From DHVE2 group archaeon (GTDB lineage Archaea; Thermoplasmatota; Thermoplasmata; Thermoplasmatales; Aciduliprofundaceae): a stretch of 64,000 bases of DNA. Made by a program: the position numbers and the translations under genes. The notes under the pieces were generated by a model. The model was not told the origin of the DNA, made no database searches, and saw only the letters and a program-made list of their open reading frames with translations. The DNA lies in NCBI GenBank assembly GCA_026993785.1, contig JALWRZ010000007.1, positions 1 through 64,000 on the forward strand, in the 5' to 3' direction. Every line of letters starts with the position of its first letter. Position 1 is the stretch's first letter. Below are positions 57,628 to 64,000 of this stretch, piece after piece.

Positions 57628-58806
57628 CTATCTTTCTCTCAAAATATAGATGAGAACGAGAACGGTAGATAGGGCAAATAGGGATGAGAAAATCAGAGGA
57701 GAGAAATCCCCGCAGTAGGAGATTAAAAGCGCAGTGAGTATGGATAGAGGTATTGTGGTGAATCTCCATATGGTAGAAATCGTGGAGAATATTGTGCCTC
57801 TATATTCCTGGGGCACCGCGGGTAAAAGCAGGGGACGATAGCCCATATGCCATAGGGGCCAGAGGAAATAGGAAAGGATATAGAACACAATAAATATGGG
57901 AAAGAGAGAATCACGTTGCAGGAAAATACTGCTAATATACACCGCCGCAGCTCCTATGCCCAAGGAGAGCATTGCAATATAAGGCAGATTTTTCCATATT
58001 CTTCGGGGAAGCATGCTCTTGGTGAAGGAAGACAGAAATTCTATAAAGCTTCCCAGGGCGGATACAAGCACTATGATAATAACTCCTTCTCCAAAATGAT
58101 TTATGATGAGATTATCCGAAACTATTCCAGACATCATAAATACACTCATTTGAGCCAATATCCCGACCAGAATAAGGGGAAGAAGTGTGGAGGAAATCTT
58201 CAATTTCTTTCTCTCCCTGTATACCGGTAAATCTGGTAGAGCAAGATAAACAAAGAGGATATAAACGGGTGATATAGCTGCCATGGCGAGATAGTAGAAT
58301 CGCATTCCCTGAAGCTGCGGTACCATGAGAAAATATAGAAAAGCGCCCAAATATGTTAGGAGCGCAGTAATCGAGGGTAATAACCAGTGCCACACATAAA
58401 CATCCTCCAGGGCATCGGAGGGATATATTTCCTTTTCATAAACGCTATAAGCGAAGGTGAAAAGTATCGCTGTAGAGAAAAGGATGCGCCCTATTAAGAT
58501 AATCGCGGGGGACCAGGCTACACCGTATATAAAATAACTTACTCCCCAGAGAGCCTCCGCGACCATTACAAAATATTTGGCATTGAGATGCCTGTCAGAA
58601 AGGTAACCCAATGGAGGAATGAGAAGAGCTGTTAAAAAGGAAGAGACGCTTATTATGGCTCCAACTTCCACCACAGAATAGCCAAGTTTGAATAGATAGG
58701 CATTAAATATTACGAAGCCTACTAGGGAGGGAGAAGTAAGAGAGTAGTAGATCATAAGGTTCTTTGCTCCCCGGGGAAGAGAGCTGAACTTCTTGATATT
58801 CACCAT
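57628..58806 (-). CDS. Major facilitator superfamily transporter
   Basis: ~12 TM pattern; GYSVVEVGAIISVSSFLTALLIPPLGYLSDRHLN. Confidence 0.85.
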   Translation of the reverse strand: MVNIKKFSSLPRGAKNLMIYYSLTSPSLVGFVIFNAYLFKLGYSVVEVGAIISVSSFLTALLIPPLGYLSDRHLNAKYFVMVAEALWGVSYFIYGVAWSPAIILIGRILFSTAILFTFAYSVYEKEIYPSDALEDVYVWHWLLPSITALLTYLGAFLYFLMVPQLQGMRFYYLAMAAISPVYILFVYLALPDLPVYRERKKLKISSTLLPLILVGILAQMSVFMMSGIVSDNLIINHFGEGVIIIVLVSALGSFIEFLSSFTKSMLPRRIWKNLPYIAMLSLGIGAAAVYISSIFLQRDSLFPIFIVFYILSYFLWPLWHMGYRPLLLPAVPQEYRGTIFSTISTIWRFTTIPLSILTALLISYCGDFSPLIFSSLFALSTVLVLIYILRER

Positions 58807-58918: not shown

Positions 58919-59167
58919 ATGATAGAAGCTGGCACGCAGGAGAAGGGAGATGCACTGGTAATTATAGAGGAATCAGACAAGAGAGAGGTGTTAGTGGAAA
59001 GCAAGATAATGGCCATCTACGGCGAGGCAATACGCAAAACAGTAGAGGAAGTAACTGCCGGCTTGGTAGCAAAAATAACTGTTAAGGACTATGGTGCACT
59101 AGATTGGGTCATAAGGGCCCGCCTGGAAGCAGCTATTAGAAAATTCAAAGAGGGGGTGAAGGAATGA
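58919..59167 (+). CDS. citD: Citrate lyase acyl-carrier (gamma) subunit, atypical
   Basis: MIEAGTQEKGDALVIIEESDKREVLVESKIMAIYGEAIRKTVEEV..VKDYGALDWVIRARLEAAI; first gene of citDEF order. Confidence 0.9.
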   Translation: MIEAGTQEKGDALVIIEESDKREVLVESKIMAIYGEAIRKTVEEVTAGLVAKITVKDYGALDWVIRARLEAAIRKFKEGVKE

Positions 59168-60012
59168 AGCTTCGTCGCACCCGCCTATATGTGCCCGGTA
59201 ACAATCCACACCTCGTGGAGAATGTGGGATTATATAATGCCGATGCAGTTATACTTGACCTGGAAGATTCTGTGCCCATACCTCAAAAATTCGATGCCCG
59301 CATTCTTGTGAAATATTCGCTGCAGCATGTAGACTTTGGAAGAAGTGAGAAGTGGGTCCGCATAAACGGGATAACCACATCCTACTGGAAAGACGACCTT
59401 AGGGAGGTGCTTCCCTACTGCCAGGTGATAAACCTTCCCAAGGTTGAGAGCTATGAAGACATGGAGATGGTGGATGCTGAGATGAAGGCAATAGAGGAAG
59501 AGCTTAAAATATCCCCACGGGAGGTTGTGCCAATAATAGAGACAGTGCGGGGCCTTATGAACGCCCGTGAGATTGCAAAGCATCCTCGGGTCACCGCGCT
59601 TGCCTGGGGCGGCGAGGACCTGACCGCTGATTTAGGTATTCCCAGGAAAAAGGCGCTCATTCTTGAGTATGTACGCGCCGAGATAGTTTTTGCGGCTAAG
59701 GCCAATGGAAAACAGGCACTGGATACCGTATACAGCAATATAAGGGACGAAGAAGGACTCTTTGAGTATGCTCAGAGAGCCAGATATATGGGCTTCGATG
59801 GAATAGGGGTAATACATCCCAATCAAATCGAAATCGTACATAAGGCCTTCAGACCTACGGAGGATGAGATTGAAGACGCCAAGAAGATTATCGAAGCGGC
59901 TGAGCTTGCGGAAAAGGAAGGGAAGGGAGTGATCTCTCTCAATGGAAGAATGATAGACCCCCCTGTGGTTGAAAGAGCAAGGAAAATTCTTCAATTTGCG
60001 GAGGTGGAATAA
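59164..60012 (+). CDS. citE: Citrate lyase beta subunit (citryl-CoA/ACP lyase)
   Basis: LRRTRLYVPGNNPHLVENVGLYNADAVILDLEDSVP; VVPIIETVRGLMNA; GGEDLTADLG; GVIHPNQIEIVHKAF. Confidence 0.93.
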   Translation: MKLRRTRLYVPGNNPHLVENVGLYNADAVILDLEDSVPIPQKFDARILVKYSLQHVDFGRSEKWVRINGITTSYWKDDLREVLPYCQVINLPKVESYEDMEMVDAEMKAIEEELKISPREVVPIIETVRGLMNAREIAKHPRVTALAWGGEDLTADLGIPRKKALILEYVRAEIVFAAKANGKQALDTVYSNIRDEEGLFEYAQRARYMGFDGIGVIHPNQIEIVHKAFRPTEDEIEDAKKIIEAAELAEKEGKGVISLNGRMIDPPVVERARKILQFAEVE

Positions 60013-61551
60013 ATGCCCATAAATGCAGTAGGTCGTGAAGTACCCAGCGAGATAAACGGCCAAAGATTCAAGCCCTTTGCCGGTGATGGAAAAACGCCCC
60101 CGGAAGGAAGACGTGCAGGTTCCCTCATAAGAATGGCACCCAAGGGAAGGAGCAAGATCGTGAATTCCCTTGAGGAAGTGATAAAAAAGGTAGGTCTGGA
60201 GGATGGAATGACCATCAGTTTCCATCATCATCTGCGCAACGGGGATTTTGTTGTGAATATGGTGATGCGTACCATCGAAAAAATGGGTTTCAAGAACATA
60301 AGACTATTTCCAACTGCCCTGTTCCCCGTTCATGAGCCTCTGGTTCCCATGCTAAAGAGCGGTGTAATAAGGAGAATAGAGGGAAGCATGAACGGCCCTG
60401 TGGGCGAGGCCACAAGCTACGGCGCGATGCGTGAAACCGCGGTACTTCGCTCCCACAGTGGCCGCGTGAGGGCGGTGGAGAGCGGAGAGGTTCATATAGA
60501 TGTGGCTTTTATTGCTGCTCCCACCGCAGATCCCTATGGAAATTTAAATGGCGTGGACGGCCCATCTGCCTGCGGCCCCTTGGCATACGCGATGGTAGAC
60601 GCATATCACGCAGACCATGTGGTGGCAATTACAGATCATCTAGTGCCCTATCCTGCCCATCCCATCAGTATATATCAGCAAAATGTGGATTATGTTGTGC
60701 CTGTGGACAAGATAGGAGATCCCAAGGGTATAATGTCGGGAACACTTAGAATCACCACCTCGCCTTCGAGATTGAAAATCGCGAGATACGCACTTGAGGT
60801 CATAGACAGAGTCGCCCTTAAACCAGGATTCTCTTTCCAAGCCGGGGCTGGAGGCATCTCTCTTGCAGTAACGAAATTCTTGGGAGATTTAATGCGCAAG
60901 CGCGGAATAAAAGCATCATTCATCAATGGCGGTGTAACAAAGTATGTGGTGGACATGCTCCATGAAGGTCTGGTAGATGTGGTTCTTGATGGCCAGGCCT
61001 TTGACCTGGATGCTGTGAAATCTCTCAAGGAAGACGCGAATCACATAGAGACTCCTCTTGCAATGTATGGAAACCCCTACTCCTCAGGAGGCATAGTTAA
61101 TATGCTTGATGCCGGAGTTTTAGGCGCGACCGAAGTGGACATAGATTTCAATGTAAATGTTAATACCCACAGCGATGGTTTGTTGCTCCATGGCATCGGC
61201 GGACATCAAGAAGTTGCCGCTGGTTCTGCTCTGACAATAATAACAGTGCCTCTCTATAGATACCGCGTTCCTGTAGTTCGCGAGAGAGTTACCACGGTAA
61301 CCACTCCCGGCGAGGTTGTGGATGTGGTGGTGACAGAATACGGAATTGCTATAAATCCGAAGAGGGACGATATAATAGAGGCCATGCGCGGCTCAAAGGT
61401 TCCCATATGGGATATTCAGGATCTGCAGAAGAAGGCATATCAGATTTGTGGCAAGCCTGAAGAGCCAAAAACCACTGACGATATAATAGCCGCCATTCTC
61501 TGGCGCGATGGAACAATCATAGATGTGGTTTACAAGGTAAAGAAATCCTAG
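60013..61551 (+). CDS. citF: Citrate lyase alpha subunit (citrate CoA/ACP-transferase)
   Basis: NAVGREVPSEINGQRFKPFAG; ISFHHHLRNGDFVVNMVM; QAGAGGISLAVTKFLGDLM; VTTVTTPGEVVDVVVTEYGIAINP. Confidence 0.95.
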   Translation: MPINAVGREVPSEINGQRFKPFAGDGKTPPEGRRAGSLIRMAPKGRSKIVNSLEEVIKKVGLEDGMTISFHHHLRNGDFVVNMVMRTIEKMGFKNIRLFPTALFPVHEPLVPMLKSGVIRRIEGSMNGPVGEATSYGAMRETAVLRSHSGRVRAVESGEVHIDVAFIAAPTADPYGNLNGVDGPSACGPLAYAMVDAYHADHVVAITDHLVPYPAHPISIYQQNVDYVVPVDKIGDPKGIMSGTLRITTSPSRLKIARYALEVIDRVALKPGFSFQAGAGGISLAVTKFLGDLMRKRGIKASFINGGVTKYVVDMLHEGLVDVVLDGQAFDLDAVKSLKEDANHIETPLAMYGNPYSSGGIVNMLDAGVLGATEVDIDFNVNVNTHSDGLLLHGIGGHQEVAAGSALTIITVPLYRYRVPVVRERVTTVTTPGEVVDVVVTEYGIAINPKRDDIIEAMRGSKVPIWDIQDLQKKAYQICGKPEEPKTTDDIIAAILWRDGTIIDVVYKVKKS

Positions 61552-61597: not shown

Positions 61598-62002
61598 ATG
61601 ATTCAAAGATTTGGAGTCTCAATAGATGCCACACTTCTTAAAAAATTCGATGAGTATATAGAGAGGAAGGGATATATAACCAGATCCGAGGCTATAAGAG
61701 ACCTGATAAGGGATGCACTTATTAACGAAAGTTTTGAGATTGAAAACGCCGAGGTTTTTGGCACAATCACAGTTATCTATGACCATGAGGTTCGTGGGAT
61801 AACCGAAAAAATCACACACCTCCAGCATAGATATGTTAAAGAAATAAGAGCCGCGGTGCATGTGCATGTTGACGAGAAAAACTGCCTTGAAGTTGTTATC
61901 GTACATGGAAAGGCAAAAACCATAAAGGAGATTTCTGATAAGCTTATGAGCCTGAGAGGAGTTAAAAACGTGAAGTTTCAGATTACCAGGGTGGAGCCAT
62001 GA
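61598..62002 (+). CDS. nikR: Nickel-responsive regulator NikR
   Basis: RFGVSIDATLLKKFDEYIERKGYITRSEAIRDLIRDAL; Ni-site H..H..C pattern HLQHRYVKEIRAAVHVHVDEKNCLEVVIVHGKA. Confidence 0.95.
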   Translation: MIQRFGVSIDATLLKKFDEYIERKGYITRSEAIRDLIRDALINESFEIENAEVFGTITVIYDHEVRGITEKITHLQHRYVKEIRAAVHVHVDEKNCLEVVIVHGKAKTIKEISDKLMSLRGVKNVKFQITRVEP

Positions 62003-62424
62003 AAGACTATAAGGGGATAAGTGGAGCTCCCTGCCTAACACATGGCTGCTCTAGATGCTGCCATAACACCGAGATGATGCTCACCCGTGAAGATGTTGAG
62101 AGGATAGAGTCCCTGGGCTACCGAGATTTCTATTACGAGAGCGACGGGTTCCTTTATCTAAAAAATAAAAATGGAAAATGCGTTTTCTTGGGCGAGGATG
62201 GAAAATGCAAAATTTACGAAGCTCGTCCCTACGGTTGCAGATTCTATCCCTATATCTACGATTACAAAAGGGATCAGATACTTCTGGATGATGATTGTCC
62301 TTATGCGAATGAATTCTCACTTCAAAAACCACAGGCCCTGAAAAATTTAGTTTTCATGATACTTAAAGAAAGAGAAGAGAGAATAAAAAGAAGAATGAAG
62401 AATATTAAGATAGAGCTTTCTTGA
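61999..62424 (+). CDS. YkgJ-like cysteine-cluster protein
   Basis: CLTHGCSRCCHNTEMMLTREDVERI...CVFLGEDGKCKIYEARPYGCRFYP; overlaps nikR stop. Confidence 0.85.
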   Translation: MKDYKGISGAPCLTHGCSRCCHNTEMMLTREDVERIESLGYRDFYYESDGFLYLKNKNGKCVFLGEDGKCKIYEARPYGCRFYPYIYDYKRDQILLDDDCPYANEFSLQKPQALKNLVFMILKEREERIKRRMKNIKIELS

Positions 62425-63126: not shown

Positions 63127-64000
63127 TTAAGTGAGGAAAGCTATGAATACCCCTGCTGCGATTGCTGAGCCAATCACACCGGCAACATTGGGACCCATAG
63201 CATGCATGAGCAGAAAGTTGCGCGGATTCTCTTTGACACCCATTCTCTGCACAACCCTCGCGCTCATGGGCACAGCACTAACTCCCGCGGCACCAATCAT
63301 TGGATTTATCTTTCCATGGGAAAGGACATAGAAGAGCTTTCCCAAGAGGACTCCTCCGGCGGTAGCAGTGGCGAAGGCAAATACACCAAGAAGCAATATT
63401 TCCACGGTTTGAAGAGTTAGGAACCTGTCTGCGGTCATCATATAACCTACACCTAATCCCAGGAAAATGGTTGCTATGTTTATCAGCTCATTCTGCACAG
63501 TCTTTGATAATCTCTCCGTGACCCCGCATTCCCTTAGGAGATTTCCAAACATCAGCATTCCCACGAGAGGGAGCGCAGTAGGCACCAAAAGACCTACGAC
63601 AATAGTTGTAACCACAGGAAAGAGTATTTTCTCCTTCTTGCTAACCTTCCTTAGGGGTTCCATTATAACATTTCTCTCCTTTTTTGTGGTAAGCGCTTTG
63701 ATTACCGGTGGCTGGATAATCGGCACAAGAGACATGTAGGAATAGGCAGCCACAGCAACGGCTCCCAGGATTTCAGGGGCAAGTTTTGTGGCGGTGTAAA
63801 TGGTGGTGGGGCCATCTGCGCCTCCAATTATCCCGATAGCTGCAGCCTGATTAACGTTGAATCCAAAGATGAGGGCTGCAAGCATGGCGCAGTATATTCC
63901 TATCTGAGCTGCTGCCCCAAGCAGAAAGGTTTTGGGATCCGCTAAAAGAGGTTCAAAATCTGTCATCGCTCCTATTCCTAAGAATATTATAAGAGGTATT
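63127..64000 (-). CDS. oadB: Na+-translocating decarboxylase beta subunit (OadB/GcdB-like), N-terminus beyond window
   Basis: [88 protein letters not shown]; frame stays open to the window end ([22 protein letters not shown]). Confidence 0.95.

Follow-up and report, generated by a model that had tools for sequence, protein, structure and literature searches.

A CitDEF system without the prosthetic-group serine or its maturation genes in DHVE2 archaea, probably working on free coenzyme A

Bacterial citrate lyase is defined by the serine that bears its prosthetic group, together with the genes for its maturation, and to judge from its sequence the archaeal CitDEF system described here lacks this defining feature. 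The system is encoded in a window of 64,000 nucleotides (the whole stretch analysed, positions 1 to 64,000 of contig JALWRZ010000007.1 from a DHVE2 group archaeon), and the serine-less acyl-carrier-like subunit, CitD, extends beyond this window through the family and the phylum Thermoplasmatota. We consider it rather likely that citDEF codes for an enzyme of the citrate-lyase type that has no covalent phosphoribosyl-dephospho-CoA and runs on free CoA, with CitD as a non-covalent component. Should this hold, citrate lyase could dispense with its acyl carrier as a carrier, lineages across an archaeal phylum would run citrate lyase on coenzyme A itself, and the reason why bacteria built a dedicated cofactor would be open to a direct test. 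Moreover, the annotation of a citD gene would be no safe evidence for the bacterial pathway.

The citD reading frame (positions 58919-59167, + strand) encodes the gamma subunit, an acyl-carrier-like protein of 82 aa (MIEAGTQEKGDALVIIEESDKREV..., N-terminus MIEAGTQEKGD). It belongs to the CitD/MdcC fold family PF06857, with 62.7 bits for a gathering cut-off of 25.1, and falls below the NCBIfam cut-offs for bacterial CitD (41 vs 63.5 bits for TIGR01608 and 55 vs 65 bits for NF009726). Its motif AGTQEKGD (58928-58951, +) corresponds to the Ser14-bearing motif of bacteria and aligns without gaps with the AGTLESGD or AGTLESSD of seven bacterial CitDs, which pairs Lys9 (codon AAG, 58943-58945, +) with Ser14. 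The family considered here comprises the DHVE2 archaea, with 18 genomes including that of the window, drawn from a search of 60 relatives; CitD is present in 16 of the 18, own genome included, and sampled genomes from the rest of the order yielded none. Lysine occupies the site in all 16 family CitDs, with AAG as its codon in 11 and AAA in 5, so this residue is not a sequencing slip, and the original prediction that lysine stands in for the prosthetic-group serine is confirmed. In the motif, seven of eight residues are the same in every one of the 16 species, vs 31 of 82 in the whole protein (hypergeometric P 0.004). The dN between the window CitD and that of locus L001 is 0.12, and a scan of GTDB contigs returned a single close relative, a DHVE2 archaeon MAG with 82% identity.

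In a wider search of Thermoplasmatota, 44 of 390 genomes had a CitD. Among the 37 readable CitDs from outside the family, the site is occupied by K in 16, R in 9, E in 7, A in 2, and Q, P and N in one each, so that 25 carry either K or R; with the 16 family members, serine is found in 0 of 53 readable sequences, which come from one phylum and are not independent. Serine occupies the site in all 11 bacterial CitDs (the seven of the main alignment and four more), a small sample taken from plasmid records only. Searches of open-licence PMC papers turned up no report of a serine-less CitD. Most non-family CitDs (L023-L062) also carry a cysteine directly after the motif aspartate (xxDC), a feature absent from the family and bacterial sequences examined.

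The enzymes that make and load the bacterial cofactor are missing as well. CitX, CitG and CitC were each found in 0 of the 18 family genomes, including the own genome of the window (99.84% complete), which bears out the earlier remark that the window holds no citC, citX or citG and extends it to the whole genome and family. CitX was likewise absent from all 380 phylum genomes sampled and CitC from 37 further CitD-bearing phylum genomes (0/55 with the 18 of the family), while ACPS gave 0/18 in the family; E. coli, the positive control, was matched in each of these searches. CitG-like proteins appeared in 2 of the 37 further genomes, and the CitG profile is not specific, since it also matches archaea without any CitD hit, such as Methanocaldococcus. 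Annotated bacterial citD loci have citX nearby, or else a gene whose annotation names the CitX product, and CitC acts on the prosthetic group that CitX and CitG supply (PMC10798043). The family thus lacks three features of a bacterial-type CitDEF: the prosthetic-group serine, CitX with CitG, and CitC.

Could the standard group sit on another residue of CitD, through an unrecognised transferase? Ser28, the only invariant serine in the family, and Thr6 of the motif, equally invariant, are the residues that would suit this idea, to which we nonetheless give very little credence. Both positions also occur in bacterial CitDs that use Ser14, and the absence of CitX from the phylum and of CitG from the family counts against it too; as we read the alignment, Ser28 is not a substitute for Ser14, because the aligned bacterial proteins have that serine besides Ser14. 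The serine of IIEESDK, put forward earlier as a fallback cofactor position, is not conserved in the CitD alignment.

The two catalytic subunits, predicted to be intact, do look so. The citE gene (59164-60012, +), whose start overlaps the citD stop, encodes a beta subunit (citryl lyase) of 282 aa with a PF03328 match of 167 bits; aligned to the structures of CLYBL and malyl-CoA lyase, it retains R66, E126, D152 and the E34/D35 pair, judged against the catalytic residues named for malyl-CoA lyases in PMC3832036. The citF gene (60013-61551, +) encodes a complete alpha subunit (acyl transferase) of 512 aa, which matches PDB entries 2hj0 and 1xr4 over its full length and, with 607 bits, lies above the TIGR01584 cut-off of 501. 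The gene order citDEF is conserved in the family loci. CitE scores 271 bits with TIGR01588, below the cut-off of 443, and is therefore left outside the curated CitE family, so that a homologue of citrate, rather than citrate, may be what it really cleaves. An enzyme that splits a different hydroxy acid, such as citramalate, whether on free CoA or not, would agree with this score. It would also agree with one bacterial citDEF whose neighbours are methylaspartate (glutamate) mutase genes, the setting in which a citramalate lyase would be expected. However, CitF clears the cut-off of the citrate lyase alpha model, and a change of substrate alone gives no account of the missing serine or of the missing CitX, CitC and CitG, so we regard it as unlikely.

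No clear resemblance to CoA-type lyases emerged from the CitE positions at which the family differs from bacteria. Residue 7 of CitE (59182-59184) is arginine in 16/16 family and 35/35 other archaeal proteins and methionine in 9/9 bacterial ones. In several archaeal families of the phylum other than this one, a single protein of about 375-386 aa combines CitD and CitE (L023, L025, L028-L034, L036, L038-L040, L048-L050, L053 and L054), and CitF is then often encoded at a separate place in the genome. We found no support for the idea that the family CitF arose within the sampled bacteria, as the 11 bacterial CitF sequences form one group in an unrooted tree; on a long branch we also observed a CitF from a Cupriavidus plasmid (L113), with no CitD or CitE match in the surrounding stretch examined.

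Free CoA is the probable substrate carrier because lysine replaces the serine and the genes that make and load the cofactor are absent, and the enzyme would then probably work like citrate lyase, with coenzyme A itself replacing the carrier. In such a cycle, CitF would transfer CoA from acetyl-CoA to citrate, releasing acetate and citryl-CoA, and CitE would split the free citryl-CoA into oxaloacetate and acetyl-CoA. Acetyl-CoA would take the place of the acetylated prosthetic group and act catalytically, so that CitC, CitX and CitG would not be needed; given that CitC works on the group provided by CitX and CitG, this would account for the joint loss of Ser14 and all three enzymes. Of the options offered in the original prediction, free CoA thioesters are thus favoured by the searches for CitX (0/380) and CitC (0/55), by the lack of any other fitting serine, by the preserved catalytic residues of CitE and the full-length CitF, and by the CitF relatives paired with a citryl-CoA lyase described below. 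According to PMC3832036, the CitE-like enzymes characterised so far, true CitE apart, act on free acyl-CoA, and the MdcD-MdcE of malonate decarboxylase takes malonyl-CoA instead of its loaded carrier protein (PMC5534430).

For CitD itself, the proposed role is that of a non-covalent subunit that would hold the complex together and may dock CoA. Against the free-CoA reaction it must be counted that, on the sequences, it seems to offer no reason for the retention of CitD. Like citrate as the substrate and the free-CoA reaction, a role of Lys9 in binding a CoA phosphate in place of the tether is inferred: free CoA has a 3'-phosphate that the prosthetic group lacks, and our guess is that Lys9 may grip it. 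The specific proposal of CitD as a non-covalent holder, with its invariant Lys9 on the 3'-phosphate replacing the covalent link, is doubtful, and the glutamate at this site in seven CitDs of the phylum counts against such a latch.

An invariant lysine in 16 species also invites the reading that a cofactor (lipoyl, biotinyl or an N-linked CoA-like group) is attached to Lys9 by some unknown or borrowed ligase, and the own genome encodes two proteins of the BPL/LplA/LipB family. These ligases can, however, serve ordinary targets. The canonical lipoyl motif is DKA and the biotin carrier encoded near citDEF has EAMKM; neither carrier-lysine motif is present in CitD, whose EKGD differs from both. 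Since E, A, Q, P or N occupies the site in other lineages of the phylum, we hold a lysine-linked cofactor to be highly unlikely. A PDB sequence search with the window CitD gave no match, a CitD profile found MdcC (5vit) alone, weakly (E 0.67), and an AlphaFold2 model built from a two-sequence alignment had a pLDDT of 47. In MdcC, the equivalent loop is exposed for modification, which speaks for a Lys9-linked group; Ser25 sits at the end of this loop, and modelling puts the ribose of the bound group some 10 A away from it (PMC5534430). On the analogy of MdcC, Lys9 could instead reach the phosphate of free CoA, which is the guess made above.

Sister lineages provide a further argument for the free-CoA reaction. 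CitF matches over the cut-off occur in 79 phylum genomes, 42 with and 37 without CitD. A gene resembling citryl-CoA lyase adjoins CitF, mostly at a distance of no more than 25 bases, in 32 of these 37 genomes without CitD vs 1 of the 42 with it (Fisher P about 1e-15, relatedness ignored; examples are L100, L101, L102 and L103). Three of four such neighbour proteins tested pass the NCBIfam cut-offs for citryl-CoA lyase, and the best PDB match of one of them is 6hxp, a citryl-CoA lyase. It counts against the parallel that, in the tree, the CitF of these pairs and the window CitF fall on separate branches. As the pair has no CitD, its thioester would be free if it makes citryl-CoA, which suggests that CitF in Thermoplasmatota can feed a free citryl-CoA intermediate. 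The pairing may represent a route by which a transferase drives the cleavage of citrate, and would be the second one based on a transferase. Ten genomes with longer open frames of 712-718 aa that match the citryl-CoA-lyase-like query gave no CitF match; in length these frames resemble an ATP-citrate lyase subunit. A 392-aa protein directly follows citF in L104 and L105, the latter matching the aconitase family.

Compared with the ATP-independent CitDEF of E. coli and Klebsiella, the archaeal system has homologues of all three subunits with their genes in an unchanged order, a full-length CitF and the catalytic residues of CitE, but differs in lacking Ser14 on CitD as well as CitC, CitX and CitG, and its CitD and CitE fall short of the NCBIfam equivalog cut-offs. 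With the citryl-CoA lyase and citryl-CoA synthetase of Hydrogenobacter (Ccl and Ccs) it would share the cleavage of free citryl-CoA proposed here, and a Ccl-like protein adjoins CitF in the sister lineages; however, Ccl has a citrate synthase fold whereas CitE is a TIM barrel, and Ccs is an ATP-dependent synthetase, while here the CoA would come via a transferase. In malonate decarboxylase (MdcACDE), MdcA is a related transferase, and among the relatives of CitD whose structure has been solved MdcC is the closest, although MdcC has its prosthetic serine, Ser25, and its own maturation enzymes. Malyl-CoA lyase and CLYBL have the fold and catalytic residues of CitE and act on free CoA thioesters, but unlike the archaeal CitE they have no CitF or CitD partner.

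Around citDEF, a divergent MFS transporter gene lies upstream of citD (57628-58806, -), as an MFS gene also does in L064, and downstream of citF there are genes for NikR and a CxxCxxCC protein (61598-62424, +). Further on, in 63127-63999 (-) and L063:8128-15420, a carboxybiotin decarboxylase beta subunit is followed by the EAMKM biotin carrier. From a reading of the translations, this cluster includes carboxyltransferase and methylmalonyl-CoA mutase genes, and it looks like a methylmalonyl-CoA decarboxylase rather than one of the oxaloacetate decarboxylase type.
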